A DNA stretch of 64,000 bases from Bacteroidota bacterium. GTDB taxonomy: Bacteria > Bacteroidota > Bacteroidia > Bacteroidales > Prolixibacteraceae. Under the pieces are notes generated by a model. It was not told where the DNA came from, searched no databases, and was given only the letters and a program-made list of their open reading frames with translations. Positions 13,716 to 48,793 of the stretch are shown here, piece by piece. Position 1 is the first letter of the stretch. Each line of letters starts with the position of its first letter. The translations under genes and the position numbers were made by a program. The stretch spans positions 1 through 64,000 of the forward strand of contig JAJRSD010000040.1 of assembly GCA_024278975.1 (NCBI GenBank). The letters are read 5' to 3'.

Positions 13716-13751
13716 TAATCTTAATTAATTAAAAATAAAATAAAAAAGCTA

Positions 13752-13902: not shown

Positions 13903-14280
13903 ATGCCAACTATTCAACAGTTAGTTAGGAAAGGAAGACAACGTAAAGCAGAGAAAAGTAGTTCTCCTGCATTAGATTCATGCCCACAACGTCGTGGAGT
14001 ATGTGTTCGTGTTTATACAACTACACCAAAAAAACCAAATTCGGCAATGCGTAAAGTTGCAAGGGTAAGGTTAACAAATGGTAAAGAGGTAAATGCTTAC
14101 ATTCCGGGTGAAGGACATAACTTGCAGGAACACTCAATAGTTCTTGTTCGTGGTGGTAGAATTAAAGACCTTCCGGGTGTTCGTTATCACTTAATTCGTG
14201 GTGCACTCGATACCGCAGGTGTTGAAGGACGTACACAACGTCGTTCGAAGTACGGTACTAAAAGACCGAAGAAGAAATAA
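13903..14280 (+). CDS. rpsL: 30S ribosomal protein S12
   Basis: 125 residues, typical length. S12 lies at the decoding centre and controls accuracy. The near-invariant [17 protein letters not shown] and [11 protein letters not shown] segments are intact, and the two lysines whose change gives streptomycin resistance (in TPKKPNS at about 43 and GRIKDLPG at 88) are unchanged, so the gene predicts the sensitive allele at those positions. First gene of the str operon; followed by rpsG after a 131-nt structured gap. Confidence 0.98.
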
Positions 14281-14344
14281 AAATTAAAAGTAGTTAACAA
14301 CGTTATTTGTAGTGGTTGGGTTGAGTAAGTAATTCTCTTAGAAT

Positions 14345-31624: not shown

Positions 31625-32452
31625 TTAAAAAGGACGTGTTTTCTTTAGCTTGCCCGGACTGTAATTAAACTGTTTTTTAAACTGGCGATAGAAATAAAAT
31701 TCATTGTTGTAGCCCGATTCAAAAGCAATTTCTTTTACGCTTGTATTCGTAGTAGTAAGCAGTTTTATAGCATGCTCCATGCGTAACCTTAGCATATAAT
31801 TGTAAGGGGTTAATCCAAAGTTCTTTTTAAATATGCGATGAAAGTAATTGGGTGCAAAGTTCGATTTTGAAGCGATCTCTTCTAAGGGTGGATTCTGTTT
31901 AAATTCATTGTTCATGAATTTTAGTGAAGGGTCTAAATTTGTAATCTCACCTGATGCAGAAAAACTTTGTACGGGAAAATCTTTTATAATATCAGCTATA
32001 AAATTTAATATATAACTGTGCAATTTAGCCTCTTCAAAACAATAGTGTAGGGTTAATATATTTGATGACAATAAATTATCGTTGTTGAATACTTTTTTTG
32101 TAAACTTATTGAAATTATCCATAAAAGGAAAATCGGTATTATCCCATACATGTACCGGTTCAGAATTCAATAATATATGCCTTAAATACAACGATGTAGG
32201 AATGAAATGCAGCCAGAAGATATCCATAAAAGAGTTGCATTTTTGCGAAACGATATTAAATCCTGAAATAAAATATATATTGCCTGATTCAATTAGATAT
32301 TCCGTATTGTCAACATTAATAATGGCATCTCCCTTAACAGGATTATAAATTTTAAAGCAGCGATCAAGTTCACTGCTGGATTTATTCCATGAGCTGTCGC
32401 AATGGTTAAAACCTCCGGTAATAATCTTACATTCAAACGAATCAATTGTCAT
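31625..32452 (-). CDS. AraC-family transcriptional regulator
   Basis: 275 residues. The N-terminal half (about 10-120) is a cupin-like sensory domain (NVDNTEYLIESGNIYFISG). The C-terminal 100 residues hold two helix-turn-helix motifs: PLEEIASKSNFAPNYFHRIF and TSVKEIAFESGYNNEFYFYR, then FKKQFNYSPGKLKK. It is divergent from the glycyl-radical gene across 120 nt and is the obvious candidate local regulator of the carbohydrate run. In this family the effector is usually a sugar or sugar acid; here unknown. Classical hybrid two-component or SusR-like regulators are not seen. Confidence 0.92.
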   Translation of the reverse strand: MTIDSFECKIITGGFNHCDSSWNKSSSELDRCFKIYNPVKGDAIINVDNTEYLIESGNIYFISGFNIVSQKCNSFMDIFWLHFIPTSLYLRHILLNSEPVHVWDNTDFPFMDNFNKFTKKVFNNDNLLSSNILTLHYCFEEAKLHSYILNFIADIIKDFPVQSFSASGEITNLDPSLKFMNNEFKQNPPLEEIASKSNFAPNYFHRIFKKNFGLTPYNYMLRLRMEHAIKLLTTTNTSVKEIAFESGYNNEFYFYRQFKKQFNYSPGKLKKTRPF

Positions 32453-32572: not shown

Positions 32573-34846
32573 ATGAAGGAAAATGAAGTAACCAGAAAGT
32601 TTACACCTGACAATAGAATGCAGACGCTTATTGACCGACGATTACAATTAGTAATTGAAAAGAAGAGGGATATCTATGTTGATAATGCCGAATTTTTGGT
32701 TTATCATTGGTCAGGCGAAGCTGCATCATTCTCTCCTGCCACCGGAGAGCATGCCTGTGATATTGACAAACGAATTGGAATTGGTGACCATAATGCAAGG
32801 GTTGATATTGGCATCCCTTTCCCAAAAGCAGATGATATGCCTTCAAAAAAAGGCAATTTTGAATACACCCCTTTAAACTGGGCGAAAGATTATGCTTTTT
32901 TTATTGATAATAGTCCGGCAGAGGTTTATGAGAATGAACTGATTGTAGGTGAATTTCATTGGCAGTTAGATGAAGCGCGTTATTTTCAATATCCTGATGA
33001 ACAGCGAAACGATGGTTTCGAGGCACGGGAGTTGGGAGCAGGTGGAATCAGTTTTACACATACCACTCCCGATTTAAGTATTGGACTGGAATTGGGTTGG
33101 AATGGTCTGCTGGATAAAGTAAGAAAAAACATTTCAAAATTTGAGAAAGAGGGTAAAACCGAACAAGTTGATTATTTGAAAGCCTCGGAATTAATTGCAC
33201 TTTCAATTCAGCGTTTTATTAAGCGCCATGCAGATGAAGCACGAAACAAGGCAAGTAAATTGTCAGATTCAAAACAGATAGATCTCTATTTATCCATTGC
33301 AGAAGTGTGTGATAACCTCGCGATACGAGCTCCTCAAACACTCCACGAAGCGGTGCAGTGGATCTGGTTTTTTCAGGTTGCCGAACGTATGCACGGACAT
33401 GGAAATGGCTATGGACGAACAGACTTGCTCCTGCAACCATTCTACAAAAAAGACATAGCAGAAAACAGAATTACCCGACAGATGGCTCGGGAACTGGTTG
33501 GTGAGATGTATATAAAATACGGAAGCTACACAGCCATTGGTGGAAGATTGCAAGATATGTCGGACGCCACAAATGAGATGAGTTGGGTCTGCCTTGAAGC
33601 CTACGATTTAGTGGGCGGAATAAATCACATGGGTGTAATGTGGCACGAAGATATGGATAAGAAGTTTTACCGCTATGCCAATGATGTTTTGACACGACAT
33701 GGATGCGGCGTACCCATCTTGGTGAATTACGACATACTTAAAGCCAGTGAAGTGCGAAGTGGGTACAAGCCCGAAGACGCATGGAATGTTGCATACAGCG
33801 GCTGCCAGTGGTATTGTGGGGTAGGAACAGAGTATAACGACCAGGATGTTAACAGCCTTGTACTTGTACAGCCTATGCAAAGAGCAATTGAACTGTCAAT
33901 AAAAAATAGGGTTGAGGACTTTGATGGTTTCTGGAAAATATACAACCATGAGGTTGACCGGACAGCAGATGCATTGGTGAAATTTAAAGATGTAACTTAC
34001 GACTGGCAGGCAAAAGTGTGGCCTGAGATGGTAACTACCTTTTGCATGCACGATTGTATCGAAAAGGGTAAGGATTGTACTGATAAAGGTGCCGTGAGAT
34101 ACAACTACACTTCTGTAAATGTATTGGGTGTTCCCAATGTGGCAGACTCAATGTATGCCATAAAGGAGTTGGTTTTCACAAAAAAACAGTACTCTCTTGA
34201 AGAGTTGGGGGATGCCCTTAAGGAGAATTGGGCAGGACGGGAAGTTATGAGACAGCACTTTTTGAACGTTCCCAAATTCGGTAATGATGAGGACGGAGTT
34301 GATGCAATGGCAATTCAGGTTGCAGAGCAGGTCAGGGAAGTGCTGGAGAGCAAGCAGAATAACAAAGGGTTTAATTATCGTCCTTCACTGTTTCAGTACA
34401 TGGGGCATACTTATGCCGGGCCAATGTTGGGTGCTACTCCTGATGGTCGACTGGCAAAAGAGCCGTTGGCACACGGAATGAATCCCATGCACGGTCGCAA
34501 TAGTAATGGCATTGCAAGTACAGTAAATTATTTTACAAAACTCGATTTCTCTAAATATCAGGGCGGTTCTTTTCAGATTGAATTAACTCCCGATTTCTTT
34601 AAAGCCGGTTCTGAAAAAGATAAACTTATGGATGCCTTTTCTGTAGGGTTTTTCAAGAAAGGCGGGGTGCAGATAAATTTTAATCTGGTTGATTTAGACG
34701 TTCTTGAAGATGCTATGAATGATAATGAAAACCCAATTTATAACGATATTAATGTAAAAGTAACCGGTTACTCCAGCCACTTTGTAACTATGGATAAACG
34801 TTTCCAGAAAGAGTTTATTGAGCGGGTAAATTATAAAAATTTGTAG
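32573..34846 (+). CDS. glycyl radical enzyme of unassigned subfamily (PFL-like)
   Basis: 757 residues, pyruvate-formate-lyase/glycerol-dehydratase superfamily. The C-terminal glycine-radical loop is KVTGYSSHF with Gly732 (usual RVxGY). The thiyl loop is AYSGCQWYCGVGTEY with Cys411. Dehydratase, choline lyase and decarboxylase types carry Cys-x-Glu here and formate-lyase has Cys-Cys; this protein has Cys-Gln-Trp, so neither reaction is supported. Other superfamily features include HTTPD (163-167), RMHGHGNGYGRTD (272-284) and DGRLAKEPLAHGMNP (624-638). The activase gene follows 43 nt later, and a FucP-like permease after that, so a role in fermenting a deoxysugar or its product is inferred. No microcompartment shell genes are visible. 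The enzyme must be oxygen-sensitive and cytosolic; no signal peptide. Confidence 0.88.
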   Translation: MKENEVTRKFTPDNRMQTLIDRRLQLVIEKKRDIYVDNAEFLVYHWSGEAASFSPATGEHACDIDKRIGIGDHNARVDIGIPFPKADDMPSKKGNFEYTPLNWAKDYAFFIDNSPAEVYENELIVGEFHWQLDEARYFQYPDEQRNDGFEARELGAGGISFTHTTPDLSIGLELGWNGLLDKVRKNISKFEKEGKTEQVDYLKASELIALSIQRFIKRHADEARNKASKLSDSKQIDLYLSIAEVCDNLAIRAPQTLHEAVQWIWFFQVAERMHGHGNGYGRTDLLLQPFYKKDIAENRITRQMARELVGEMYIKYGSYTAIGGRLQDMSDATNEMSWVCLEAYDLVGGINHMGVMWHEDMDKKFYRYANDVLTRHGCGVPILVNYDILKASEVRSGYKPEDAWNVAYSGCQWYCGVGTEYNDQDVNSLVLVQPMQRAIELSIKNRVEDFDGFWKIYNHEVDRTADALVKFKDVTYDWQAKVWPEMVTTFCMHDCIEKGKDCTDKGAVRYNYTSVNVLGVPNVADSMYAIKELVFTKKQYSLEELGDALKENWAGREVMRQHFLNVPKFGNDEDGVDAMAIQVAEQVREVLESKQNNKGFNYRPSLFQYMGHTYAGPMLGATPDGRLAKEPLAHGMNPMHGRNSNGIASTVNYFTKLDFSKYQGGSFQIELTPDFFKAGSEKDKLMDAFSVGFFKKGGVQINFNLVDLDVLEDAMNDNENPIYNDINVKVTGYSSHFVTMDKRFQKEFIERVNYKNL

Positions 34847-34889: not shown

Positions 34890-35854
34890 ATGGACAAGCA
34901 AAAATCAAACAACGAGATAAAAGGGCGAATATTTAAAATTGAATCGTTAAATACGCATAACGGCCCGGGTTACCGAACTGTTATATATTTAAAAGGATGC
35001 CCTCTGAATTGTCTTTGGTGTCATAACCCGGAAGGTATTTCGCAAAAAAAAGAGATATGGGTACTGCACTCCAAATGTATTGGATGTTTAAGCTGTGTTG
35101 ATGCCTGTCCCCAATCTGCCCTTTCTATGCAGAAATCAGGAATAGCAGTTGACCGTAGCAAGTGTGTTGGTTGTTATACTTGTGTTGATGTATGTCCTTC
35201 AAAAGCTATCGAAAAGTTAGGGGAAGATTATACTGTTTCAGAAGTTTTTGATCGGGTGTTAAAAGACAAACTTTTCCTCGAAGAATCGGGAGGTGGAATA
35301 ACAGTAACAGGTGGTGAGCCGGGGATAGCCCCCGAATTTGTAAGCCAACTGTTTCAGAAATGCCGCAATGAGGGTATTCACACTGCATTTGACACTTCCG
35401 GATTTATCTCAAAAAGGCTCTCGAAATGATAATCCCTTATACCGACCTTCTCTTTTTCGACCTGAAAGTTATGGAGGATGAGGCAGCCGTAAAACTAACC
35501 GGACAAGACACCTCCCACATATTTGAATCATTGGAATGGATTAAATCGTATAATTTAGCACACAACAAACCGGAGTTGCAATTTCGCACACCAATCATCC
35601 CGGGGTCAACAGACAGCACAAAAAATATGAAGGCCATTGCCACAAAAATACGAAATGAATACGCAGGACTTTTTACCGAGTGGGAATTAAATCTATTCAA
35701 TGACATCTGCGAAGATAAATATCAAAGGCTAAATAAAACATGGCATTATACCGGAATAAGTTTCGATAACAGTGCCTACAGTAAAGTGGACAGATTCAGA
35801 GAAGATAATTTAGATTTAAAGATTAAAATATCAGGTTTTTATCAAAAGAAATAG
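34890..35854 (+). pseudogene. glycyl-radical-enzyme activase (radical SAM), frameshifted
   Basis: The first part (179 codons) has the radical-SAM cluster motif CPLNCLWC (Cys37, 41, 44) and two ferredoxin-type 4Fe-4S sites (Cys63/66/69/73 and 92/95/98/102), as in activases of glycerol-dehydratase-type glycyl radical enzymes, then GGGITVTGGEP for SAM binding. It terminates at 35429 shortly after DTSGF. The remaining 142 codons continue in the -1 frame from 35426 (IIPYTDLLFFDLKVMED), with LQFRTPIIPG. Adding one A to the five-A run at 35411-35415 restores one protein of about 321 residues. A 1-nt deletion or a sequencing error is simplest; the ATGA overlap would also permit coupled synthesis of two halves. 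It would install the glycine radical in the preceding enzyme. Confidence 0.85.
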
Positions 35855-35932: not shown

Positions 35933-37138
35933 ATGAAAAATCAAACATCAAAATTCTTACCTCTGCTTTTAGTTTATATCCTATTTTTCATGTGGGGATT
36001 TATCTGGAACATGTTTAATGTTCTGGCCACTTTTTTTCAGGAGTCGTTTAATCTCTCCAACACTCAGGTCTCGTTCGGAACATCCTTGTCTTTTCTCGCA
36101 TTTTTTCTGATGTCGTACCCTGCAAAAATTATTATTGGCAAATTCGGAACTCAAAAAGCCATTGCTCTCGGCGCAGCAGTTACCGGAGTTGGGTTATTGA
36201 TATTCTATCCCGCTTCAGTTGCCGAAAGTTACAACATCTTCCTGATTGGGTTATTTGTCTTGTTTACCGGAGTAACTATTCTCCAAACAGTTTGCAACCC
36301 TTATGTTGGTATATCCGGAAAGCCAAAAAACAGAGCAGCCCGAATTAATTTCGCACAGGGTGTGGGTGCTATTGGTGCTGCTTTAACTGCCCCTTTGGCC
36401 GGATGGTTTATACTCAAACTGTATGGAGATGACATTTTTGGAGGGATAAAAATATTCTACTTGCTTATTGCCGGTGTCTTCTTTTTGTTGGCTTTTCTGG
36501 TTATTGTCGTTAATATGCCTCCTAATCCAACAGAAGAGAAACAAAAGAGTGTTGCGATTAGCTTTAAACCGGGGGGTGCCTTTAAACACCGTCATTTTGT
36601 GATTGGCTTTATTATTATGTTTGTTTACATGGGTGCCGAAGCAATATTGTACCAGTTAATGACACCCTACTTTAAAGAGGTTGGACAGATTGGGAATGCC
36701 AAAGCAGTACAACTCTCATCTATTATTTTTTATGGATTGATGGCAGGCAGACTATTAGGTGCCTGGGCTATGACAAAAATTGATCCTGCTAAGATTCTCG
36801 GTTCATTTGCCTTGATAGCTGCACTCTTGGTAATTACATCGATGGTTGCCGGGGGAACAGTTGGGATATATGCCATAACTGCCATTGGATTTTTTATCTC
36901 CATCATGTTTGCTTCAATATTTGCCCTCGCAACAAAAGGACTCGGGAAAGATACAAATGAAGCATCTTCGTTTGTTATTATGGCTATTTCGGGAGGCTTT
37001 TTTATACCGCTGCTATTTGGTGTAACTGCTGATTACTTTAGTTTGTCGGCATCATTAATTGTTGTTGTTATTCCTTTACTCGCAACTTCGGCCTATGGTT
37101 TCTTCTACAAAAGGATTATAAATTATAACGATAATTAA
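35933..37138 (+). CDS. FucP-like MFS sugar permease
   Basis: 401 residues, about twelve hydrophobic segments. The start LPLLLVYILFFMWGFIWNMF and the NPYVGISGKPKNRAARINFAQGVGAIGAALTAP region (part shown) match the fucose/glucose:H+ symporter (FHS) branch of the major facilitator superfamily. L-fucose is the likely substrate from the adjacent alpha-fucosidase genes; glucose, galactose or N-acetylhexosamine remain possible. It lies between the activase and the DUF5703 gene in the same direction, 78 nt after the former. Confidence 0.85.
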   Translation: MKNQTSKFLPLLLVYILFFMWGFIWNMFNVLATFFQESFNLSNTQVSFGTSLSFLAFFLMSYPAKIIIGKFGTQKAIALGAAVTGVGLLIFYPASVAESYNIFLIGLFVLFTGVTILQTVCNPYVGISGKPKNRAARINFAQGVGAIGAALTAPLAGWFILKLYGDDIFGGIKIFYLLIAGVFFLLAFLVIVVNMPPNPTEEKQKSVAISFKPGGAFKHRHFVIGFIIMFVYMGAEAILYQLMTPYFKEVGQIGNAKAVQLSSIIFYGLMAGRLLGAWAMTKIDPAKILGSFALIAALLVITSMVAGGTVGIYAITAIGFFISIMFASIFALATKGLGKDTNEASSFVIMAISGGFFIPLLFGVTADYFSLSASLIVVVIPLLATSAYGFFYKRIINYNDN

Positions 37139-37258: not shown

Positions 37259-39577
37259 ATGAATAAAAATTTAACAGGTATTATTGCAGCAGGAATCTTG
37301 CTGATTACCATTTTTTTCGCTTGTAAAACTGTTAAAACGCAACCAACCGAGAATCAGAAAAAACTTACCGCATACAATGTTATTTGGGACTCACCAAGCA
37401 TAGACCATCATGGATCGATGCCCATTGGTAATGGAGATATTGGCTTGAATGTATGGGTTGAAGAGAATGGCGACATCTGCTTTTATATAGGCAAAACCGA
37501 CTCGTGGGGCGACAACGGACGTTTGCTGAAAGTTGGTAAAGTAAGGGTGAAATTCAGCCCCTCCATTATTTTTCCCGGAACAGAATTTAAGCAGGAACTG
37601 GATCTAAAAACCGGAACCATCCAAATCAATTCCGTCGGCAAAATAGGAGATAAGAAAGTTAATCTTAGTTTTCAATTGTGGGTTGATGCCAATAATCCGG
37701 TTATTCATATTACACAAGAATGCTCTGTTCCGTTAAGCATGACTGCAAACATTGAATTATGGCGTACCAAACCTTATTCATTACCAAAATTGGAATCAAG
37801 CGATTTGATGGAAGATAGGTCAAAACCGGGTAGTTTGCACCAGCCAGTAATTGTAGAGCCGGATCGGTTAATTCAGGATACGAAAGATTATATAGGTTGG
37901 TATCATTACAATAAAAAATCGGTTGGTTTCGATTTGAATATGAAATTGCAAGGATTGTCGGAGTTTATCACAAACGATCCCATTCTTCATCGTACCTTCG
38001 GAGCAATTATCACCGGAATAAAAGCCAAACGAACAAGCGATAAAAGCTTGCAAACTGAAGCTGCAAAATTAGGTCGGTTGAATGTATATGTTTTAACTCA
38101 GCAACCTTCGAAACCTGAAGAGTGGCAAAAATCAATTGAGAACCTTGCTGTCAATACTGAAAAAAAATCTTTCACCAACCGAAAGAAAACTCATCGGAAT
38201 TGGTGGACTGCATTCTGGAACAGAAGCTGGATTTATGCCAGTTCGAATGACAGTGTCCGGCAGCCCGAAGACGACGATGCATTTATTGTATCGCGTGCAT
38301 ACAATTTACAACGGTTTATCGATGCTTGTGCAGGGCGTGGTAACTATCCTATAAAATTTAACGGATCCATATTTACGGTTCCAACCGGCGACAATCCAGG
38401 TGATGCTGATTACCGCCGTTGGGGACCCGGTTACTGGTGGCAAAATACGCGCTTGCCTTACCTCAGTATGTGTGCTTCCGGCGATTACGACCTGATGCAA
38501 CCATTTTTTAAAATGTATGCCGATGAAGTTTATCAATTGAGTAAAAAACGCACAAAAAAATATTTTGGGTTCGACGGAGTTTACTTCCCTGAATGTGTCT
38601 ATTTCTGGGGTGCTAATTTTATAGCTACTTATGGTTTGACACCTTATGAAGAGCGGGAAGACCCCCTGCAGGAAAGTGGCTGGCATAAGTGGGAGTGGGT
38701 TTCCGGTCTTGAGTTGGTTTATATGATGCTGGATTACTATGATTATACCCTCGATAAAGAATTTCTTCAGCATAAAATTCTGCCGGTAGCAAATGATGTA
38801 TTGCGTTTTTTTGATAATTATTACAAAACAAACAACAAGGGACAATTGGTAATGCATCCCTCCATGGCCTGTGAAACATGGTGGGACTGTACAAACCCAA
38901 TGCCCGAACTGGCAGGGTTGCACAGTATTACAAAAAGGCTTGCTGCACTACCGAAAAACTTAACAAGTGAACCAGACAGGAAATTCTGGAGCGAACTTAG
39001 CGTTAAGCTGCCTGAAATTCCTTTACGGGAAACACCATCAGGAATTGCTTTAGCCCCTGCTGAACGTTTTGAGAATAAGCAGAATGTTGAAAATCCGGAA
39101 CTGTACGCAGTTTTTCCATTCCGACTGTTTGGTGTTGGAATGCCTAATCCGGAGTATGGAGAAAATGCGTTGGAACACCGATGGGACAAAGGACATTTTG
39201 GCTGGCGTCAGGATGATATTTTTATGGCTTATCTGGGATTGACGGAACAGGCAAAAAATGGTTTGGTAAGTCGTGCAAAGAATTACGATAAAACAAAACG
39301 TTTCCCGGCTTTTTGGGGACCTAATTACGATTGGACACCCGATCAGGATCATGGAGGTACTTTAATGAAAGCTTTTCAGTCAATGTTATTACAAACAGAC
39401 CCATATTCAAAAAAGATTTACCTGACACCTGCCTGGCCCAAAGATTGGGATGTTGATTTTAAACTTCATGCACCTTATAAAACCGTAATTGAAGGACGGA
39501 TTATAAAAGGGAAAATAGAAAATCTGAAAGTAACGCCTGAATCAAGATTGCAAGATGTTATTATAAAAGGCAATTAA
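37259..39577 (+). CDS. DUF5703-domain lipoprotein, six-hairpin glycosidase-like
   Basis: 772 residues with a lipoprotein signal (IFFAC, Cys22). Residues about 40-300 are a DUF5703-type beta-sandwich: YNVIWDSPSIDHHGSMPIGNGDIGLNVWV, of which the PIGNGDIG turn is diagnostic (part shown). The rest is an (alpha/alpha)6 barrel resembling clan GH-L enzymes (GH95/GH65), with RRWGPGYWWQNTRLPY and HWEWVSGLEL-like helices, and a C-terminal LTPAWPKDWDVDFKLHAP strand region. Family members occur in polysaccharide loci; no activity is established to my knowledge. Faces the periplasm or the cell surface. First exported enzyme of the run, 120 nt after the permease gene. Confidence 0.82.
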   Translation: MNKNLTGIIAAGILLITIFFACKTVKTQPTENQKKLTAYNVIWDSPSIDHHGSMPIGNGDIGLNVWVEENGDICFYIGKTDSWGDNGRLLKVGKVRVKFSPSIIFPGTEFKQELDLKTGTIQINSVGKIGDKKVNLSFQLWVDANNPVIHITQECSVPLSMTANIELWRTKPYSLPKLESSDLMEDRSKPGSLHQPVIVEPDRLIQDTKDYIGWYHYNKKSVGFDLNMKLQGLSEFITNDPILHRTFGAIITGIKAKRTSDKSLQTEAAKLGRLNVYVLTQQPSKPEEWQKSIENLAVNTEKKSFTNRKKTHRNWWTAFWNRSWIYASSNDSVRQPEDDDAFIVSRAYNLQRFIDACAGRGNYPIKFNGSIFTVPTGDNPGDADYRRWGPGYWWQNTRLPYLSMCASGDYDLMQPFFKMYADEVYQLSKKRTKKYFGFDGVYFPECVYFWGANFIATYGLTPYEEREDPLQESGWHKWEWVSGLELVYMMLDYYDYTLDKEFLQHKILPVANDVLRFFDNYYKTNNKGQLVMHPSMACETWWDCTNPMPELAGLHSITKRLAALPKNLTSEPDRKFWSELSVKLPEIPLRETPSGIALAPAERFENKQNVENPELYAVFPFRLFGVGMPNPEYGENALEHRWDKGHFGWRQDDIFMAYLGLTEQAKNGLVSRAKNYDKTKRFPAFWGPNYDWTPDQDHGGTLMKAFQSMLLQTDPYSKKIYLTPAWPKDWDVDFKLHAPYKTVIEGRIIKGKIENLKVTPESRLQDVIIKGN

Positions 39578-39597: not shown

Positions 39598-40632
39598 ATG
39601 AACCGCAAAGAACGCTTTTACGCAACAATAGAAAATAAACCTGTTGACCACCCGGCATCATGGCTGGGGCTTCCGGTGGCTGAAGCTTTACCAAATTTAT
39701 ATAAACATTTCGGAGTAAGTACATATAACGAACTCAAAGAAAAAATAGGCGACGATATTTATCCAATTGAAGTTCCTTATAACCATCCCCCGCTAAATCA
39801 CATTGCCTGTGCCTTTGATTTTGCCCAAAAAGGAGCATCGTCAAATGACGAACGCACACTAACTGCTCCTGGTTTTTTCGAAGATTTTACTGACCCAGCA
39901 AAAGTTAACGAATTTAACTGGCCTAAACCGGCAGAGCACATGGATTTTGAAACATGTAAAAAAGCAGTCGAAGATGCCCCACAGGATTATGCATTGATGG
40001 GGATTATGTGGTCGGCACATTTTCAGGATGCATGCGCTGCCTTTGGAATGGAAAATGCAATGACAACAATGTATATGGCACCCGAAATGTTTGAGGCAGT
40101 TATAGACCGGATTACCGATTTTTATTTGGAGGCAAACGAAATATTTTACAAAGCCGCCGGCGATAAGTTAGATGCCGTGTTGATTGGAAACGACTGGGGA
40201 AGCCAAACCGGTTTGATGCTGTCGCCCGAACTTTTACAGCAGTTTGTTTACAAGGGAACAAAGCAACTTATAGACCAGGCGCACTCTTATGGCTACAAGG
40301 TAATCCATCATTCATGTGGTTCCATCGCCGAAATAATTCCCGATTTAATTGAACTGGGGGCAGATGCAATTCATCCTATTCAGGCTTTGGCTGCCGGTAT
40401 GTCGGCAGCTGAATTGAAAGATAAATATGCCGGCAAAACATCTTTTTGCGGAGGTGTTGATGCGCAGGAACTATTGGTAAACGGTACTCCTGAAGATGTG
40501 AGTAAAAAGGTGAGGGAGCTAAAAGAACTTTTTCCAACCGGGTTAATAATTTCTCCAAGCCACGAAGCTATATTAACCGATATCTCCCCGGCAAATGTGG
40601 AGGCAATGTTTAATGAATTATTACCAGCTTAG
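39598..40632 (+). CDS. UroD/MtaA-like zinc methyltransferase homologue
   Basis: 344 residues, uroporphyrinogen-decarboxylase superfamily fold. It is not a haem enzyme by motif: it carries H238-x-C240 (VIHHSCGS) and Cys284 (SFCGGVD), the H-x-C...C zinc site of corrinoid methyltransferases such as MtaA/MtbA, which move methyl groups between corrinoid protein and thiol. No signal peptide, so cytosolic. No corrinoid protein gene is adjacent, so a demethylation role, for instance of O-methylated sugars, is only an idea. It starts 20 nt after the DUF5703 gene and precedes the first alpha-fucosidase gene by 31 nt, clearly the same transcript. Confidence 0.82.
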   Translation: MNRKERFYATIENKPVDHPASWLGLPVAEALPNLYKHFGVSTYNELKEKIGDDIYPIEVPYNHPPLNHIACAFDFAQKGASSNDERTLTAPGFFEDFTDPAKVNEFNWPKPAEHMDFETCKKAVEDAPQDYALMGIMWSAHFQDACAAFGMENAMTTMYMAPEMFEAVIDRITDFYLEANEIFYKAAGDKLDAVLIGNDWGSQTGLMLSPELLQQFVYKGTKQLIDQAHSYGYKVIHHSCGSIAEIIPDLIELGADAIHPIQALAAGMSAAELKDKYAGKTSFCGGVDAQELLVNGTPEDVSKKVRELKELFPTGLIISPSHEAILTDISPANVEAMFNELLPA

Positions 40633-40663
40633 AGTTATTTTATTTACCTTAAAAGCGAAGGAT

Positions 40664-42394
40664 ATGAATTTGTTTAGATTTATCGCAATTTTTATTTTGT
40701 TTGGTTTTGCAGCATGCAATAGCCACGAAGAACAAAAGTTAACAATGGATGAGGTTATCAATGACCCCGAAGCAGCTCATTTGGCTCGTCCAAGTGAAGC
40801 TCAATATAAGTATCACGAGCGTGAAAGAATTATGTTCGTCCATTTGTCTCCAGCTTCATGGCAGGGAGTTGAGTGGGACAGGGAAACAACACCTCTCAAA
40901 GACATAAATCCAAAACAACTGGATACAGATCAATGGGCAGAAGCTGCAACATCTTTTGGTGCCAAAACCATTCTTTATGTAGCAAAACATGTTGGAGGTT
41001 TTTGCTGGTGGCAAACAGAAACCAGTGAGTATTCGATTAAAAATACACCCTACAAAGGAGGGAAAGGTGATGTGCTTAATGAACTTATGGCAAGTTGTAA
41101 AAAAAATAATCTTCAAATGGGAATTTATATTTATCCGGGAGATCAGAAAAAGTGGGGAAATCGTGTAGGTACAGGTGGAGTTACTAAAGACCCATCGAAA
41201 CAAGAGGCATATAATAAGGTTTTTAGGGGGCAATATACAGAGGCCCTTAGTCGCTTTAAAGATAATCCGGACCTACTTAATGAGCTTTGGTTTGATGGCA
41301 GCTGTAAAATTGATATCACAGATATTATAAAAAAATATGCACCGGATGCCGTGAACCTGCAAGGACCATTAGCGAACGTCCGTTGGTGTGGAAACGAGAG
41401 TGGTGTTTTACCTTACCCGGCATGGAATTCTTTGTCAAAGAGAGATTTAAATACGGGTCTGGCTACAGTGAAACAGAGCAATCCCGATGGAGATGTCTGG
41501 GCACCTTTGGAAGTAGATATTCCGAATATGGGACGCCACTGGATTTGGAGTCCTGAGAATGAGGGAAAGATGAGAAGTGTCAAAAACCTTATTACACTTT
41601 ATTATAAGTCTGTTGGGCGTGGTGGAGTTTTCCTTCTTAACTCTTCACCTGATACGACAGGACTTATTCCCAAAAGCCACATGAAAATTTATAATGATTT
41701 TGGGAACGATTTAAAAAGGCGTTTTGCCAATCCTCTCGGAGAAACAAATGGATGCGGAAATAAGTACATCATCAAGTTTGATAAACCGCAAACAATTAAC
41801 CAATTAATGCTTCGCGAAGATTATCGCTACGGAGAGCGGATTCGTCGCTTTGAAGTAAAAGTTAAAAACGAAAAAGGCGAATGGCAACTTGTAAACAGAG
41901 GTTCAGCTGTTGGGTACAAACGTATTGTTGTTTTCGATGATGTTGTGGCTGCTGAAGTTTCTTTAGAAATTGTAAACAGTGTAGGAATCCCTATTGTAAG
42001 AGACTTTAAAGTTTATAAGCTGGAAGGCGACAATGATTTCTTAAAATTTTCTGATGATAATGTGGAATTTGTTAAGGAGATTAAATGGCTGCCTTGTTCT
42101 TTTGAAACCAACGAGAAACATGCAACAATTGACATTTCAGATAAAATTTCGATTCCGGCACAGTATCAATTCAAAATTATTACAAGCTTTACTCACTCCA
42201 TTACCAGTGTGAGAGTGGCTTATGACGGAGAATTTGTAATGGAACAGATGGTGCAAAAAGAAAAAGATGGAATCTACAACTTCACACATACTGCAGCAAC
42301 AACAGATGAACATAAAATAACAGTTCACATCGAATTTGATAAAGATGCCAAGGATGCCGGCCTTAGTTTTTTTATGGAAGATGTAATAGAATAG
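40664..42394 (+). CDS. GH29-type alpha-L-fucosidase, lipoprotein
   Basis: 576 residues from the ATG at 40664 (MNLFRFIAIFIL, lipobox with Cys18); an upstream in-frame ATG at 40595 lies within the preceding gene and is not preferred. The GH29 TIM barrel has the nucleophile Asp in ELWFDG and typical strands ILYVAKHVGGFCWWQTE and GVFLLNSSPDTTGLIP. The usual KHHDGF loop is KHVGGF, so the fucose-pocket His-Asp pair is altered. A C-terminal beta domain (from about 360) follows, with a discoidin-like LMLREDYRYGERIRRFEV segment. Likely cell-surface or periplasmic. Its next neighbour is a paralogue, suggesting tandem duplication. Confidence 0.88.
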   Translation: MNLFRFIAIFILFGFAACNSHEEQKLTMDEVINDPEAAHLARPSEAQYKYHERERIMFVHLSPASWQGVEWDRETTPLKDINPKQLDTDQWAEAATSFGAKTILYVAKHVGGFCWWQTETSEYSIKNTPYKGGKGDVLNELMASCKKNNLQMGIYIYPGDQKKWGNRVGTGGVTKDPSKQEAYNKVFRGQYTEALSRFKDNPDLLNELWFDGSCKIDITDIIKKYAPDAVNLQGPLANVRWCGNESGVLPYPAWNSLSKRDLNTGLATVKQSNPDGDVWAPLEVDIPNMGRHWIWSPENEGKMRSVKNLITLYYKSVGRGGVFLLNSSPDTTGLIPKSHMKIYNDFGNDLKRRFANPLGETNGCGNKYIIKFDKPQTINQLMLREDYRYGERIRRFEVKVKNEKGEWQLVNRGSAVGYKRIVVFDDVVAAEVSLEIVNSVGIPIVRDFKVYKLEGDNDFLKFSDDNVEFVKEIKWLPCSFETNEKHATIDISDKISIPAQYQFKIITSFTHSITSVRVAYDGEFVMEQMVQKEKDGIYNFTHTAATTDEHKITVHIEFDKDAKDAGLSFFMEDVIE

Positions 42395-42399
42395 CTAAT

Positions 42400-44064
42400 A
42401 TGAAAAAATTTAAACTAATCCTCGTAGCAAGTATTTTGCTCATTGGCAAAACAGCAATTTCACAACACCTGCCAAAACCATCAGAAGTTCAGTATAAGTG
42501 GCACGAGCAAGAGAGAATTATGTTTGTATGTTTGGACCCCTGTACCTGGCAGGGGAGAGAATACGACAATCACTCCACTCCGCTGGAGCAGATAAATCCT
42601 AAAAAACTGAATACCGACCAATGGTGCGAAACTGCACAACTCTGGGGTGCCAAGGAGATTCTTTTTGTAGCCAAACACACTGGTGGTTTTTGCTGGTGGC
42701 AAACCGAAACAACAGACTATGGAATTAAAGACACACCCTACAAAGATGGTAAAGGCGATGTAATAAGAGAACTCTCTGAATCTTGTAAAAAGTACGGATT
42801 AAACCTGGGAATTTATGTTTATCCGGGTGATGAAATCTGGGGAGCCGGAATTGGAAGTGGCGGAAAAACCAAAGACCCGTCGAAACAGGAAGCCTACAAT
42901 AAAGTTTTTAGAACACAATTGGAAGAAACATTGGCAAATTATGGAGATATAATTGAGGTTTGGTTCGATGGAAGCTGTGTGATTGATGTTTCTGATATTT
43001 TAGAAAAGTATGCCAAAAATTCTGTTGTTTTTCAAGGGCCACATGCCACACTTCGTTGGCCAGGAACCGAATCAGGAAAACTATTCTATCCGTTTTGGAA
43101 TACTGTAAAAAGTGAAGATTTCAAGTCAGGTGTTGCAACACAGGTACATGATGACCCTAATGGTGACGTTTGGGCTCCGATAGAAACAAACACAACACTA
43201 TATGACCATAATTGGTTTTGGTCGCCTGAAAACGAAGAGAAACGTAAATCTCTCGATGAGTTAATGGAGTGCTATTATAAATCGGTTGGTTATGGCAGTG
43301 TGTTTTTACTGAATTCAACACCCAACACAAGCGGCTTAATCCCTGAAAACGACCGAAAACTCTATAAAGCTTTTGGCGATGAAATTGACCGCCGGTTTAA
43401 AATCCCCATTGCTTCAGTTAATGAACAGAAAGGGAAAATTGTTGAGCTCGACATGTCCGGAAAGAAAAAAATAAACCATGTGGTGACCATGGAAGATTAC
43501 CGTTTGGGGCACCGGATACGGGAATACAAAATTGAAGGTTTTATTGATGGGAACTGGAAAGAGTTGTGCCGTGGTCAGTCCGTTGGACGTATGAAGATAG
43601 ATTATTTCGATGAAATTGAAGTGTCAAAAATACGGCTCAATATAACTAAAAATGTAAACGAACCGGTAATCAGAAAACTGTCGGTATATTATGTCGAAGA
43701 TTTTGTCGCCCCGCCAAAACGTGAGATTCGCCCCTGGTCAAACTGGCAAAATATTGGTAATTTTAATACAAAAGAAAATACGATAATAGAAGTTAATCTT
43801 ACCGGAAAAATTAAAATGCCCGGTCAGTTTACAGTGAGGGTTGAGCCTGAAAATGCAGATACAAAATTTAAAATCAGCAATGTAGAACTGATTTATGACG
43901 GACGGGTTGTATTAGAAAGTTTCACAACTGTAAAGGGGAACGAAATAAACATTAATCGCACAGCACAAGTTACCGACGAAAGTAAAATTACTTTACGTTT
44001 TAGTTTAAAAAGTAAAACAGATTTTAGTGGAAAAATACAATTTAAGCCCGCATTAATTTATTAA
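42400..44064 (+). CDS. GH29-type alpha-L-fucosidase, second copy
   Basis: 554 residues, secretion signal ending near ISQ. It parallels the preceding gene closely (PSEVQYKWHEQERIMFV versus PSEAQYKYHERERIMFV; WQGREYDNHSTPLEQINP). Nucleophile Asp lies in EVWFDGSC, and the loop is KHTGGFCWW instead of KHHDGF, as in its neighbour. The discoidin-like part includes VTMEDYRLGHRIREYKIEG. It begins 5 nt after the first copy. Two diverged copies side by side suggest different linkages or positions on the same glycan. Confidence 0.88.
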   Translation: MKKFKLILVASILLIGKTAISQHLPKPSEVQYKWHEQERIMFVCLDPCTWQGREYDNHSTPLEQINPKKLNTDQWCETAQLWGAKEILFVAKHTGGFCWWQTETTDYGIKDTPYKDGKGDVIRELSESCKKYGLNLGIYVYPGDEIWGAGIGSGGKTKDPSKQEAYNKVFRTQLEETLANYGDIIEVWFDGSCVIDVSDILEKYAKNSVVFQGPHATLRWPGTESGKLFYPFWNTVKSEDFKSGVATQVHDDPNGDVWAPIETNTTLYDHNWFWSPENEEKRKSLDELMECYYKSVGYGSVFLLNSTPNTSGLIPENDRKLYKAFGDEIDRRFKIPIASVNEQKGKIVELDMSGKKKINHVVTMEDYRLGHRIREYKIEGFIDGNWKELCRGQSVGRMKIDYFDEIEVSKIRLNITKNVNEPVIRKLSVYYVEDFVAPPKREIRPWSNWQNIGNFNTKENTIIEVNLTGKIKMPGQFTVRVEPENADTKFKISNVELIYDGRVVLESFTTVKGNEININRTAQVTDESKITLRFSLKSKTDFSGKIQFKPALIY

Positions 44065-44076: not shown

Positions 44077-46461
44077 ATGAAAAAGTTAATGATTCTTTTT
44101 TCTCATAACTGTAAATATTTGTTGTTGACATTAACAATAATACTATCGTCATTCCCGTCCATTAAAGCTCAGGAAAAACTCCCATACAAGAATGCGGATT
44201 TGCCCGTTCAGCAGCGGGTTGCAGACCTGCTTTCGCGTATGACATTAGACGAAAAAATAAGCCAAATGTCGATGCTTAGTTTAAGGAAACTGAAAACCGA
44301 TAATGGTGGTGTGATTACTGAAAGCTCCTTGGAAAGGCTCTTTGACGGGCGAAGTACAGGATGTTTGGAAAGTCCGTTTATTGGAGTTGAAGAGATTGCC
44401 AAATATTCGGAAGCTGCCGACAGATATTTAAGAGAGAATACCAGACTTGGAATTCCGGCCATTCAAATTGCAGAGTGTTTACACGGACAACTGGCTTTTG
44501 GTGCAACTATCTTTCCACAGGCAATTGCACAGGGGAGTACCTGGAATCCGGAATTAATTAAAAGAATGGGCGAAGTAATTGCCAAAGAAGCTACATTGTC
44601 AGGTGTTGACCAGGCACTGTCTCCATTGTTCGATTTGGCGAGAGACCCACGCTATGGTCGTGTTGAAGAGTGTTTTGGAGAAGACCCTTTTCATGTAGCC
44701 GAAATGGGAAAAGCTTTTGTTATTGGCATGCAGGGTGCTCCGGAAATCACAAAAAATTATATTCCTGAAAACCATCTAATGTGTACTGCCAAGCACTTTG
44801 TGGCTTACAGTACACCTGTTGCCGGAATAAATCTTGGCCCCAATGATATTGGAGAAAGAACATTGAGGGATATTCACCTCTATCCATTTAAAAAAGTAGT
44901 TCAGGATGCTAATATTTATTCAGTAATGCCTTCGTATAATGAGTTAAACGGAATTCCTCTTCATGCATACACTCATCTAATAAAGGATGTTTTGCGCAAA
45001 GAGTACGGATTTAATGGCTATATTTTTTCTGACTATGGCGCAATTCAAATGCTCGAATTTTTTCATAAAACATCGGAAAATAAGCCACAAACAGCAATGC
45101 AAGCATTAACTGCTGGTATTGATTTGGAAGCTCCTCAACCTTATGCATATTCACATTCAGTATTAAAAGATTTAGTGGAAAAAGGAGAGTTAGATATCAA
45201 GTTAATTGATGAAGCTGTCAGTAATATTCTGACTGTCAAATTTAAGGTCGGCTTATTTGATAAACCGTACAAAGCACCAAAACAGATATCCAAACTGGTA
45301 CATACCGAAAGCTCAATTCTGTTAGCACGTGAAATAGCAGAAGAATCGACGGTTCTATTAAAAAATGACAATCATCTGTTACCGCTGAATATATCAGACT
45401 ATAAGTCGATTGCTGTAATAGGACCAAATGCTGATAGAATTCAATATGGCGATTATAGCGCTACTAAAGCTAAGTCGTCGGGAATAACAGTACTTGAAGG
45501 TATAAAAAATTATGTTGGTAATAAGGTTGAAATAAACTATGCCGAAGGCTGTGATATTACAGATTTAAATGATGAAGGCATAGAAGAGGCTGTAAAAGCT
45601 GCCACAAAAAGTGATGTTGTAGTTTTGGTTATTGGTGGCACAAGCATGACATTGTCAGGTATTGGTTGGGGAGACGATAATTCAGATGACAGTCCGACCT
45701 GTGGTGAAGGTTTCGACCGGGCTGAATTAAGACCACCGGGAATACAACCCGAACTGATAAAGGCTATTTATAAAACAGGCAACCCGATTGTTCTGGTTAT
45801 GGTTCACGGGCGTGCCTACAATATTAAATGGGAGAGTGAGCATATTCCTGCCATCCTTGATGCATGGTATCCCGGCGAGCAGGGAGGAAATGCCATTGCC
45901 CGAATTCTGTTTGGTGAGGTGAACCCCTCAGGGAAACTTTCTGTTTCATATCCGCAAAGTGTGGGGCATGTGCCGGTATTTTATAATTACCAGCCTTCCG
46001 GAAGGGGTTTTTATCATCAACCTGGCACAAAAGAAAAACCGGGCAGAGATTATGTTTTTAGTTCAACAGACCCTCTTTTTCCGTTTGGTTTTGGATTGAG
46101 TTATACAAAGTTTAAGATTTCAAACCTCAAAATAAAAAAGAACGTACTTAAACCTGATGAGACCATTCAATTGACAGTGGATATTAAAAATACGGGTAAA
46201 GTTGCAGGAAAAGAGGTGATACAGGTTTACATTAATGATATGATTAGCTCGGTTGCCACTCCGGTAAAGCAATTAAAGGCATTTGAAAAGGTGGAATTGA
46301 AACCCTCGGAAACGAAAACTGTTGAATTTGAAATACCCTGTTCTGAATTAGGCCTTTGGAATAGAAATATGGATTATGTTGTAGAACCGGGCAAATTTGA
46401 AATACAGATTGGTAATTCTTCCAGTGATATACATTTAAGAGGTAATATAAGAATTGAATAA
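44077..46461 (+). CDS. GH3 beta-glycosidase
   Basis: 794 residues with a signal peptide (ending near IKAQ). Domain order is GH3 N-terminal TIM barrel, GH3 C-terminal alpha/beta sandwich, and a fibronectin-III-like tail (VDIKNTGKVAGKEVIQVYI). The nucleophile Asp is in FSDYGAIQML, and AKHFVAYSTPVAG provides the Lys-His pair. Substrate ranges in the family cover beta-glucosides, beta-xylosides and alpha-L-arabinosides, and sequence alone does not settle this. It would trim beta-linked backbone or side-chain sugars exposed by the fucosidases. 12 nt after the second GH29 gene. Confidence 0.92.
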   Translation: MKKLMILFSHNCKYLLLTLTIILSSFPSIKAQEKLPYKNADLPVQQRVADLLSRMTLDEKISQMSMLSLRKLKTDNGGVITESSLERLFDGRSTGCLESPFIGVEEIAKYSEAADRYLRENTRLGIPAIQIAECLHGQLAFGATIFPQAIAQGSTWNPELIKRMGEVIAKEATLSGVDQALSPLFDLARDPRYGRVEECFGEDPFHVAEMGKAFVIGMQGAPEITKNYIPENHLMCTAKHFVAYSTPVAGINLGPNDIGERTLRDIHLYPFKKVVQDANIYSVMPSYNELNGIPLHAYTHLIKDVLRKEYGFNGYIFSDYGAIQMLEFFHKTSENKPQTAMQALTAGIDLEAPQPYAYSHSVLKDLVEKGELDIKLIDEAVSNILTVKFKVGLFDKPYKAPKQISKLVHTESSILLAREIAEESTVLLKNDNHLLPLNISDYKSIAVIGPNADRIQYGDYSATKAKSSGITVLEGIKNYVGNKVEINYAEGCDITDLNDEGIEEAVKAATKSDVVVLVIGGTSMTLSGIGWGDDNSDDSPTCGEGFDRAELRPPGIQPELIKAIYKTGNPIVLVMVHGRAYNIKWESEHIPAILDAWYPGEQGGNAIARILFGEVNPSGKLSVSYPQSVGHVPVFYNYQPSGRGFYHQPGTKEKPGRDYVFSSTDPLFPFGFGLSYTKFKISNLKIKKNVLKPDETIQLTVDIKNTGKVAGKEVIQVYINDMISSVATPVKQLKAFEKVELKPSETKTVEFEIPCSELGLWNRNMDYVVEPGKFEIQIGNSSSDIHLRGNIRIE

Positions 46462-46476: not shown

Positions 46477-48789
46477 ATGAAATCAATACAAATGTTAAAT
46501 ATAACTGCGATACTAATTTTTGTCGTATTGTTTTTTGGTTGCACAAAACCAAAAACGGGGAGTGACAATGTAACAACACAAGGACACGGGTTGTCTTTTG
46601 ATTACATACCGGTTTCATGGGACGAAGCTATTCCTTTAGGAAATGGGATGCTTGGTGCATTGGTTTGGCAAAAGGATGGAAACTTACGTTTGTCGCTCGA
46701 CAGAGCCGATTTGTGGGATCTAAGGCCAATTGAAATAAAAGATACGGCGATATGGAATTATAATTGGATAATAGAACAACGTAAAAACGGAACGTTCTCA
46801 GAGGTGCATGATAAGCTCGATTGCTTGTACGATGATAATCCTGCCCCCACTAAAATTCCGGGTGCAGCTCTTGAGTTTGATATAAAGAAATTAGGGGAGG
46901 TTGAGAATGTATCCCTTAACGTATCTGATGCTCTCTGTATAATAAAATGGAAAAACAATACAAGTTTAACCACCTTTGTGCATGGAGATAAGAATAATGG
47001 ATGGTTTAAGTTTAAAGGTGTTGATAACGATTTTATTCCAATCCTCGTCCCTCCGGATTATACACATGGTGATATGAACAAAAAAGCCAATTCGCTAAAT
47101 CCACAAGATCTTTTGACCTTGGGTTATTCACAAGGTAAGGTTCATAGCACTTCAAACAGCCACAGTTATATTCAGGAAGGTTGGGGTGGTTTTAAATATC
47201 ATGTTTATGTTGAATGGGAATATCACAACAATCAACTGGTAGGTTGCTGGTCGATTAGTTCTGAATATCCGGAATGGGAAAAATCGGAGGATGCGATGGC
47301 AGTTGTGAAGAATAGTTTTAGTCGCGGTTATCCCAACGAATTGGAAAGCCATAAGAATTGGTGGAAAAACTTCTGGAGCCGGGCAAACATCTCGCTTCCC
47401 GATTCGGTAATTGAACGACAGTGGTATCTGGATATGTATAAATTTGGTTCAGCTGCCCGTAAGAATGCACCTCCGGTGGCACTGCAGGCAGTATGGACTG
47501 CAGATAACGGGCAGATACCACCATGGAAAGGCGATTACCACCACGACCTGAATACCCAGTTGTGTTACTGGCCGGCTTATAGTGGAAATCATTTGGACTT
47601 GGAAGAGGGTTTCCTGGATTGGCTATGGAGATACAGGGATAACTTTAAAGAATATTCGCGCGAATTTTTTGATGCAGAAGGTATAAATGTACCCGGAGCT
47701 TCTACTCTTGAAGGAAAGGTTATTGGAGGTTGGTCGCAGTATGGTTATACCCCTACTGCTGCGGCATGGTTGTCTCACCATTTTTACCTGCATTGGCGTT
47801 ACTCTATGGATCGGGAATTTCTTAAAAACAGGGCATACCCATGGATAAAGGATGTTGCCATATTTTTGGAAGATATTACTGAAAAAGATGAGAATGGTAA
47901 ACTTAAGTTGCCTTTAAGTTCGAGTCCGGAAATTTATAGCAACAAAGCAAAAGCATGGTTTTATGATATAACCAACTACGATCTTGCGTTAATACGATGG
48001 ACTTTTGAAAAAGCAGCCGAACTGGCTTTTGAACTCGATAATACTGAAGATGCAAAAAGATGGGATAGTTTACTGAAGGCTTGTCCTGAATTTGCAATTG
48101 ATGAACAGAGCGGATTAATGTATGCTCCCGGTTTTCCCTGTAATGAATCACACAGGCATCTTTCTCATCTTTTGGCTATTCATCCTCTAAGTAGCATCGA
48201 CTGGTCACAAGGAAAAGAAGCACAAACAATAATTACCAATACGGTTCAAAACTTAAAAGAGCTTGGTACTGATTGGTGGACCGGATATTCATTTAGCTGG
48301 TTTGCCAATGTTCAGGCACGGATGTTTGATGGAGAAGGAGCTGCAAAAACCTTAAGGATATTTGCGGAAAATTTTTGCCTTCCAAACTCCTTTCATGTTA
48401 ATGGAGAACAGTACGATCGCGGGTTTTCGAAATTCAAGTACCGGCCGTTTACCATTGAGGGTAATTTTGCTTTTGCGGCAGCTGTTCAGGAGATGCTGAT
48501 ACAAAGCCATTCCGGTATCGTCCGGGTTTTTCCGGCCATTCCGGCTGAATGGAAAGATGTTGCTTTTAACAACCTAAGAACAGAGGGGGCATTTACCGTC
48601 TCTTCGGAAAAGAAGGATGGAGAGGTTCAATTTGTAAAAATCAATTCTGAAAAAGGAGGAGTTATTAAGATTCATAACCCTTTTACCGGCTTAAAATACA
48701 GAGTGAATTCAAAAAGTGTTACCGGAACCTCTTTGATTGAGTTAAAAATGAAACCGGGTGAAACAACTGAATTGTATAAAACGGAATAA
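46477..48789 (+). CDS. GH95-like six-hairpin glycosidase lipoprotein
   Basis: 770 residues, lipobox LFFGC (Cys22). The N-terminal beta-sandwich has WDEAIPLGNGMLGALVW, and the (alpha/alpha)6 barrel holds HHDLNTQLCYWPAYSGNH, which aligns to the sugar-binding loop of GH95 (N-x-N-x-[QE]-M-N-Y-W), but with Asp for the first Asn and Cys for a later Asn. The C-terminal QEMLIQSHSGIVRVFPAIP is GH95-like. So it belongs to the clan but the catalytic loop differs; activity not assignable. Lies 15 nt after the GH3 gene. Confidence 0.78.
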   Translation: MKSIQMLNITAILIFVVLFFGCTKPKTGSDNVTTQGHGLSFDYIPVSWDEAIPLGNGMLGALVWQKDGNLRLSLDRADLWDLRPIEIKDTAIWNYNWIIEQRKNGTFSEVHDKLDCLYDDNPAPTKIPGAALEFDIKKLGEVENVSLNVSDALCIIKWKNNTSLTTFVHGDKNNGWFKFKGVDNDFIPILVPPDYTHGDMNKKANSLNPQDLLTLGYSQGKVHSTSNSHSYIQEGWGGFKYHVYVEWEYHNNQLVGCWSISSEYPEWEKSEDAMAVVKNSFSRGYPNELESHKNWWKNFWSRANISLPDSVIERQWYLDMYKFGSAARKNAPPVALQAVWTADNGQIPPWKGDYHHDLNTQLCYWPAYSGNHLDLEEGFLDWLWRYRDNFKEYSREFFDAEGINVPGASTLEGKVIGGWSQYGYTPTAAAWLSHHFYLHWRYSMDREFLKNRAYPWIKDVAIFLEDITEKDENGKLKLPLSSSPEIYSNKAKAWFYDITNYDLALIRWTFEKAAELAFELDNTEDAKRWDSLLKACPEFAIDEQSGLMYAPGFPCNESHRHLSHLLAIHPLSSIDWSQGKEAQTIITNTVQNLKELGTDWWTGYSFSWFANVQARMFDGEGAAKTLRIFAENFCLPNSFHVNGEQYDRGFSKFKYRPFTIEGNFAFAAAVQEMLIQSHSGIVRVFPAIPAEWKDVAFNNLRTEGAFTVSSEKKDGEVQFVKINSEKGGVIKIHNPFTGLKYRVNSKSVTGTSLIELKMKPGETTELYKTE

Positions 48790-48793
48790 AACT

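Follow-up and report, generated by a model that had tools for sequence, protein, structure and literature searches.

A glycyl radical enzyme with a Cys-Gln-Trp thiyl loop heads a fucoside locus in a member of the Prolixibacteraceae and belongs to a subfamily found in many phyla

Which reaction does a glycyl radical enzyme (GRE) catalyze when it heads a run of fucosidase and sugar-transporter genes and keeps most of what looks like a dehydratase active site, but carries a tryptophan where the dehydratases have their catalytic glutamate? The question is raised by the window, a stretch of 64,000 nucleotides from a Bacteroidota bacterium of the family Prolixibacteraceae (GCA_024278975.1, contig JAJRSD010000040.1), in which an open reading frame (ORF) with an ATG start encodes an oxygen-sensitive GRE of 757 residues (Table 1). 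The active site of a GRE is interpreted from its motif, Cys-x-Glu denoting eliminases and Cys-Cys formate-lyase. A deep clade with a dehydratase site but Trp at the second position after the thiyl Cys (Cys+2) would represent a further chemistry, one overlooked by current annotation. We propose, tentatively and with slightly less than even confidence, that the window GRE works as a radical C-O lyase on L-fucose or a close derivative and that its Cys-x-Trp subfamily is sugar-directed. The enzyme probably carries out a sugar reaction that has not been shown for any known GRE.

First, the protein has the domains and catalytic residues of a GRE. Both domains expected of the superfamily, PFL-like (307.7 bits, residues 162-615) and Gly_radical (56.2 bits, residues 633-738), were matched above their Pfam cut-offs. 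In a 26-row alignment of the window protein and its relatives, built without L010 (one in-frame stop) and the incomplete L023, L026, L029 and L031, the radical Gly732 and the thiyl Cys411 are invariant, Cys415 is invariant within the Cys-Gln-Trp (CQW) family, and the unbroken window ORF retains every family-invariant residue. The preliminary description, which had reported both catalytic residues, Trp instead of Glu at Cys+2 (Trp413) and the lack of the second Cys of formate-lyase (the loop reads G410-C411-Q412), is borne out on each of these points. Counted along the alignment rows, H163, H276, C411 and D425 correspond to H164, H281, C433 and D447 of the B12-independent glycerol dehydratase 1r8w, whereas W413 stands opposite E435 and G277 opposite S282. 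The window GRE therefore has the His and Asp that eliminases carry at 1r8w H164 and D447 and, taking the roles of the aligned residues in glycerol dehydratase as background, most of the predicted dehydratase site is kept, but not its Glu.

Second, as originally stated, the reaction is not assignable to a characterized subfamily. Twelve NCBIfam models match the window GRE and none exceeds its cut-off; the best is TIGR01774 (330.4 bits, cut-off 678.2), and CutC (178.9 bits, cut-off 1050) and the pyruvate formate-lyase (PFL) model TIGR01255 (105.4 bits, cut-off 994.2) score lower still. The second-best profile, the trans-4-hydroxy-L-proline dehydratase HypD, reaches 259.5 bits, far under its cut-off of 1100, and HypD is Cys-x-Glu where the window GRE is Cys-x-Trp; the source genome also has a HypD-type GRE (L002), which branches with HypD. 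Identity to the other GREs aligned is at most 28%. We looked for a characterized Cys-Gln-Trp subfamily that would hold this GRE and found none, and a literature search, with most subscription journals outside its coverage, yielded no named Cys-x-Trp GRE and no such GRE from a fucose locus. The family is conserved and apparently undescribed.

The closest solved relatives are propanediol and glycerol dehydratases. A search of solved structures with the family profile gave 304 bits for 5i2a (1,2-propanediol dehydratase) and 299 bits for 1r8w, and Foldseek with the AlphaFold2 model (predicted local distance difference test 84.7, predicted template modelling score 0.90) ranked 1r8w first, its first three matches being to 1r8w and 5i2g at 22-24% identity. 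Together with the retained His163, His276 and Asp425 and a fucose isomerase gene (fucI) in the source genome, these matches speak for an ordinary 1,2-propanediol dehydratase which would end fucose fermentation (fucose to lactaldehyde to 1,2-propanediol to propionaldehyde). We consider this distinctly improbable. Although the window GRE shares the fold, the radical Gly, the thiyl Cys and the residues at His164, His281 and Asp447 of 1r8w with glycerol dehydratase and the Roseburia inulinivorans propanediol dehydratase (5i2a/5i2g), identity is about 22-24% (about 24% to the Roseburia enzyme), and the Glu that both carry at Cys+2, as do 34 of 34 non-PFL rows outside the Cys-x-Trp clades, is Trp. 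The gene sits in a sugar locus, microcompartment shell genes are absent from the source genome and present in just 7 of 31 family genomes, and no propionaldehyde-processing gene was recognized in the run, for which no profile search was made. Loss of the Glu and the lack of a shell gene in the source genome make propanediol dehydration less likely.

Third, Cys-Gln-Trp is the signature of a subfamily across many phyla and not an oddity of one protein. A contig scan of genomes gave 30 relatives of the window GRE, from Bacteroidota, Chlorobiota, Spirochaetota, Bacillota, Chloroflexota, Planctomycetota, Kiritimatiellota, Lentisphaerota, candidate division WS1 and a record titled Desulfobulbaceae. 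The motif YSGCQWYC is found in the window GRE and in 28 of these 30, the other two (L029 and L031) ending before it, and the window GRE combines this motif with the full-length similarity that marks the proposed subfamily. One further member comes from the phylum of Pontiella (L071/L096). Among 395 genomes of the window's phylum only its own reached family level (1414.8 bits; next GRE 311.4), and family-level GREs occur in 3 of 295 genomes of its order and 2 of 194 of the Pontiella phylum. One same-genus and two same-family genomes gave no match at E 1e-100, so the CQW GRE is an accessory gene there. A plasmid search returned 141 records, all below 60% identity; the six sequences examined among the matches listed included no CQW member and two proteins with Cys-Asn-Trp, which belong to the second clade described below. 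Culturable hosts with an intact activase gene include Labilibacter marinus, Carboxylicivirga sediminis, Pontiella sulfatireligans and Diplocloster. The hosts are presumably anaerobes, with sources that, in part by their record titles, range from sediment to the guts of termites and of humans or animals.

A second Cys-x-Trp clade stands alongside. A GCHWM or GCNWM loop (CNW/CHW) is found in six GREs of 713-755 residues, four from the Pontiella phylum (337-354 bits) and two encoded on Flammeovirga and Persicobacter plasmids (L072-L075, L109:11923-14064 and L110:11890-14070). They share Trp at Cys+2, Glu at Cys+9, Asp425 and Glu485 with the CQW family, but are about 24% identical to the window GRE and have Ser at Cys+4, where CQW proteins have Cys415. 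Their genes adjoin AP_endonuc_2/MocA-type, mannose-6-phosphate-isomerase-like, GH47, GH130 or sulfatase genes rather than fucosidases (some lie beside AP_endonuc_2-MocA fusion genes), neighbors that again point to sugar metabolism. In an alignment of 71 rows (27 CQW, 6 CNW/CHW and 38 other GREs, without the same five sequences as above), Trp occupies Cys+2 in 27/27 CQW and 6/6 CNW/CHW rows and in none of the 38 others, of which 34 have Glu and 4, all PFL, have Ser. The eliminase Glu is therefore present in 0 of 33 Cys-x-Trp rows, the window GRE among them, versus 34 of 34 non-PFL others. Besides Trp413 and Glu485, the two clades share, among others, Pro166, Trp176, Arg272, His358, His634, Gln668, Glu670, Asn702 and Thr731, all rare or absent in the 38 others.

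A tree of 50 rows, computed with the motif columns excluded and 21 near-copies removed, supported the CQW clade (Shimodaira-Hasegawa-like approximate likelihood ratio test 100), the six CNW/CHW proteins (100) and their union (98), in a quick search without bootstrap that carries a long-branch warning on the union. Glycerol and propanediol dehydratase, CutC, benzylsuccinate synthase, isethionate lyase and the decarboxylases were compared by profiles or structures instead of in the tree. YbiW and PflD, which resemble the proposed role of the window GRE in acting on cyclic sugar, are both Cys-x-Glu, unlike the window GRE, and fall outside the Cys-x-Trp clade; PflD has Asp at the D425 position. 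The conservation of Cys-Gln-Trp across many phyla, with a second Cys-x-Trp clade alongside, suggests that it reflects a conserved chemistry. We also weighed a C-C bond-breaking or acyl-transfer GRE of the PFL type acting on a keto-sugar, since formate-lyases have no Glu at Cys+2 either (all four PFL rows have Ser) and Glu485, found in only four of the 38 other rows, aligns with Glu in precisely these PFL rows. It seems very improbable: the window GRE has no Cys-Cys pair, the PFL rows form a separate branch, with E. coli TdcE the least identical row of all, and no coenzyme A-type partner gene was recognized. Judged from sequence, fold and radical machinery are those of a GRE, and the family has neither the Cys-x-Glu of eliminases nor the Cys-Cys of formate-lyase.

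Fourth, we infer the substrate class from gene neighbors. The GRE had been described as opening a fucoside locus, and it does head a run in which all genes counted as real, from 32573 to 62581, lie on the + strand and which includes fucosidase and 6-deoxysugar-transporter genes. We compared 32 family loci (the window, 30 relatives and L096) with 24 control GRE loci, namely 20 of the best-scoring GRE places of the phylum sample (one being the source genome's own second GRE, L091) and four sister-clade loci, by tblastn at 1e-12. Genes for glycoside hydrolase family 29 (GH29), GH95-like enzymes or fucose isomerase were present in 11 of 32 family loci versus 1 of 24 controls (Fisher p 0.006) and, within Bacteroidota, in 9 of 13 versus 1 of 20 (Fisher p 0.0002), in tests that treat related genomes as independent; the control stretches are not matched to the family loci in length, and most of their hosts have a different lifestyle. 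The sole control scored as positive, L093, had a weak match to GH29. In L009, L012 and L029 the GRE is immediately flanked by GH29 genes, and the only positive loci beyond Bacteroidota are L021 (Treponema), where fucose isomerase lies beside the GRE with an FGGY kinase and an ATP-binding-cassette sugar importer, and L030 (Spirochaetales), where fucose isomerase beside the GRE is accompanied by rhaM. The fucose-isomerase loci of the source genome, Diplocloster, Clostridiales bacterium VE202-21 and a Chloroflexi metagenome-assembled genome, read by ORF starts, gave no clue to the GRE reaction.

In the Diplocloster loci (L013 and L032), the genes for an AraC-type protein and an RbsABC-like importer precede those for the GRE and its activase. 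This layout would make sense for a GRE whose substrate is the sugar imported or a closely related compound. That no other new catabolic enzyme lies beside this importer would also fit a radical sugar epimerase or isomerase in which Cys411 takes a hydrogen and another donor, for example Cys415, returns one; such an enzyme would require no base, in line with the loss of the Glu, and Cys415 is invariant in the CQW family. We find this improbable, since Cys415 is replaced by Ser in the sister clade, the eliminase-typical Asp425 and His163 are kept, and we know of no GRE epimerase.

For the C-O lyase that we favor, the neighboring fucosidases would release, and the neighboring permeases import, L-fucose or a close 6-deoxyhexose derivative. 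By homology, the radical S-adenosylmethionine (SAM) activase would place the radical on Gly732, from which it would move to Cys411, and the Cys411 thiyl would abstract a hydrogen from a sugar carbon. The adjacent C-O bond, to a hydroxyl, the ring oxygen or an O-substituent, would then be cleaved in the manner of glycerol dehydratase-type and YbiW/PflD-type GREs, a step suggested by the retention of His163, His276 and Asp425. With Trp413 in place of the eliminases' Glu, a base would come from elsewhere, the clade-specific Glu485 being a candidate, or would not be needed, and Trp413 may stack on the sugar ring.

Several observations weigh against this proposal. The catalytic Glu of GRE eliminases is not present, so that elimination itself is uncertain; the AlphaFold2 model has low confidence at residues 608-643; the activase frame is broken in the source genome; and GH29, GH95-like and fucI genes are all missing from the stretch searched in 21 of the 32 family loci. 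At the genome level, fucI scores above the cut-off in 22 of the 31 unique family genomes versus 18 of 98 other genomes of the order, a count which excludes G524 and G588 (duplicates of the L008 and L009 genomes) and three GRE-free relatives, and whose background is no fair match for the non-Bacteroidota members. Rhamnose isomerase (above 500 bits) is enriched in the same genomes, however, at 21 of 31 versus 24 of 98, and the three GRE-free relatives, of the same genus or family, all have fucI. We therefore rejected fucose isomerase as proof at the genome level: because rhamnose isomerase is enriched alongside it, genome content says "6-deoxysugar user" rather than "fucose". The earlier suggestion of an anaerobic step on a deoxysugar-derived product may hold: it fits the Bacteroidota loci but is weakened by the rhamnose isomerase counts and the loci without markers.

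An O2-dependent hydroxylase-family gene lies near the GRE in 6 of the 32 loci. In L004, L005, L006 and L010 a PhyH-type 2-oxoglutarate oxygenase gene directly follows the activase gene, and this subtype occurs in just these four of the 32 family genomes, as a single copy each; L027 and L096 have an FA_desaturase-type gene instead, and five of the six loci share a related xylose-isomerase-like TIM-barrel gene. PhyH was found in none of the 24 control loci, in which FA_desaturase was not searched for. Solved relatives of the PhyH protein include EvdO2, SnoK and SnoN, which we take to be deoxysugar-modifying oxygenases, while solved-structure searches with the TIM-barrel, UroD and FA_desaturase proteins returned no matches and so no substrate clue. 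In E. coli, ybiW is two genes from ybiU (Gig2-like by Pfam), whose product is presumably oxygenase-like. On one reading, the oxygenase and the GRE would have parallel roles, the former with O2 and the latter without it.

Of the readings that fit, the boldest is ether cleavage paired with these oxygenases. The GRE would split, without oxygen, an ether-type bond of a fucose derivative (an O-methyl fucose, a methyl fucoside or an anhydro sugar), with methanol expelled or the ring opened, and the O2-dependent hydroxylases of sister loci would do the matching job in air. The oxygenase genes and their TIM-barrel companion, the solved relatives of the PhyH protein, and UroD-type, weakly methyltransferase-like genes in the window, L006, L011 and L030 argue for it. 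A precedent for ring opening is given by YbiW and PflD, which are reported to act on 1,5-anhydroglucitol-6-phosphate and 1,5-anhydromannitol-6-phosphate, anhydrosugars phosphorylated by the phosphotransferase system (PMC12441222). We nonetheless think ether cleavage unlikely, since oxygenases occur in just the six loci, of which the window locus is not one, we identified no enzyme for O-methyl or anhydro sugars, and the Diplocloster loci have none of these partner genes. A wider generalization, which we regard as doubtful, is that Cys-x-Trp GREs form a distinct catalytic class acting on intact, perhaps unphosphorylated monosaccharides without a Glu base, the CQW family being the O2-free counterpart, on L-fucose-type sugars, of the PhyH- and FA_desaturase-type hydroxylases in the same loci.

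The GRE had also been expected to be functional. Its radical Gly and thiyl Cys are intact, but the activase frame is not: compared with L003, the window gene is one base short in an A-run, so that the first ORF ends and a second starts in an ATGA overlap, the two halves matching consecutive parts of TIGR02494. A single activase ORF of 314-320 residues is found in L003-L008 and L010, and an activase match lies alongside the GRE in 27 of 32 family loci; of the five without a match, four lie on contigs that stop within the GRE, and in L009 about 0.5 kb of sequence follows it. The split may be an assembly error, a real lesion or a working split. A decaying system, in which the split activase would leave the GRE without its radical, would account for the missing base and the two overlapping ORFs where relatives have one. 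We give it little probability, since the GRE ORF and all family invariants are preserved, an assembly error is possible because the split falls in an A-run of a draft assembly of 115 contigs, and the second GRE-activase pair of the source genome (L091) might, speculatively, act in trans.

Table 1. Features of the GRE locus in the window
Feature	Position	Strand	Evidence
AraC-type regulator, divergent, upstream of GRE	31625..32452	-	Pfam; same cluster in L003-L010, L014
GRE, 757 residues, CQW subfamily	32573..34846	+	ORF, profile, structure, alignment
Thiyl loop codons Y408-S-G-C411-Q-W413-Y-C415, Trp at Cys+2 (Cys411 33803-33805, Gln412 33806-33808, Trp413 33809-33811, Cys415 33815-33817)	33794..33817	+	read from sequence; invariant in alignment
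Radical Gly732 codon, in VKVTGYSSHF	34766..34768	+	sequence; Gly_radical domain; invariant
GRE activase N-terminal part, radical SAM, CxxxCxxC, 4Fe-4S insert; frame broken	34890..35429	+	TIGR02494 positions 1-165
GRE activase C-terminal part, other frame	35426..35854	+	TIGR02494 positions 171-279
FucP/GluP-like major facilitator superfamily sugar permease	35933..37138	+	Pfam; under NCBIfam cut-offs
DUF5703_N / GH95-like glycoside hydrolase	37259..39577	+	Pfam
UroD-family protein, weakly MtaA/CmuA methyltransferase-like	39598..40632	+	NCBIfam, Pfam
Alpha-L-fucosidase family (PF01120, GH29)	40595..42394	+	Pfam
Alpha-L-fucosidase family (PF01120, GH29)	42400..44064	+	Pfam
GH3 glycoside hydrolase	44077..46461	+	Pfam
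GH95	46477..48789	+	profile
GH95, partial profile match	48758..51028	+	profile
GHL6 domain fused to L-rhamnose-mutarotase (rhaM) domain	51063..52511	+	profile
RhaT-family permease	52522..53685	+	profile
GH95	53696..56071	+	profile
GH97	56071..58074	+	profile
GH95	58104..60506	+	profile

Past the window, the same contig (L115) carries another GH29 gene, an N-acylglucosamine 2-epimerase-type gene and a SusC/SusD-type pair. The window UroD gene has close homologs (57-61%) in the GRE loci L006 and L011. Two CQW contigs hold further genes of interest: in L022 (Phycisphaerales) two GREs lie close together (7572-9992 and 11857-14337), one CQW and the other of Cys-Val-Glu type and above the TIGR01774 cut-off, and a lacto-N-biose phosphorylase gene (L014:75-2276) shares its contig with the CQW GRE of VE202-21. 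Among other GREs, L053, L055 and L057 of the phylum sample have a GCGEYI thiyl loop and branch apart from HypD-like and YbiW/PflD-like rows, and plasmids of Acinetobacter towneri and Moraxella osloensis (L108, L113) carry a Cys-Val-Glu GRE and activase near Tn3-family transposase genes, which is odd for genera that we take to be aerobes.

Fucose is an abundant sugar of algae, plants and mucus, and the CQW GRE, often beside fucose genes, may be a hidden route for it. The loci that pair the GRE with O2-dependent hydroxylases offer a testable oxic/anoxic switch, and the culturable, named hosts of the family make the question of what this GRE does answerable at the bench.

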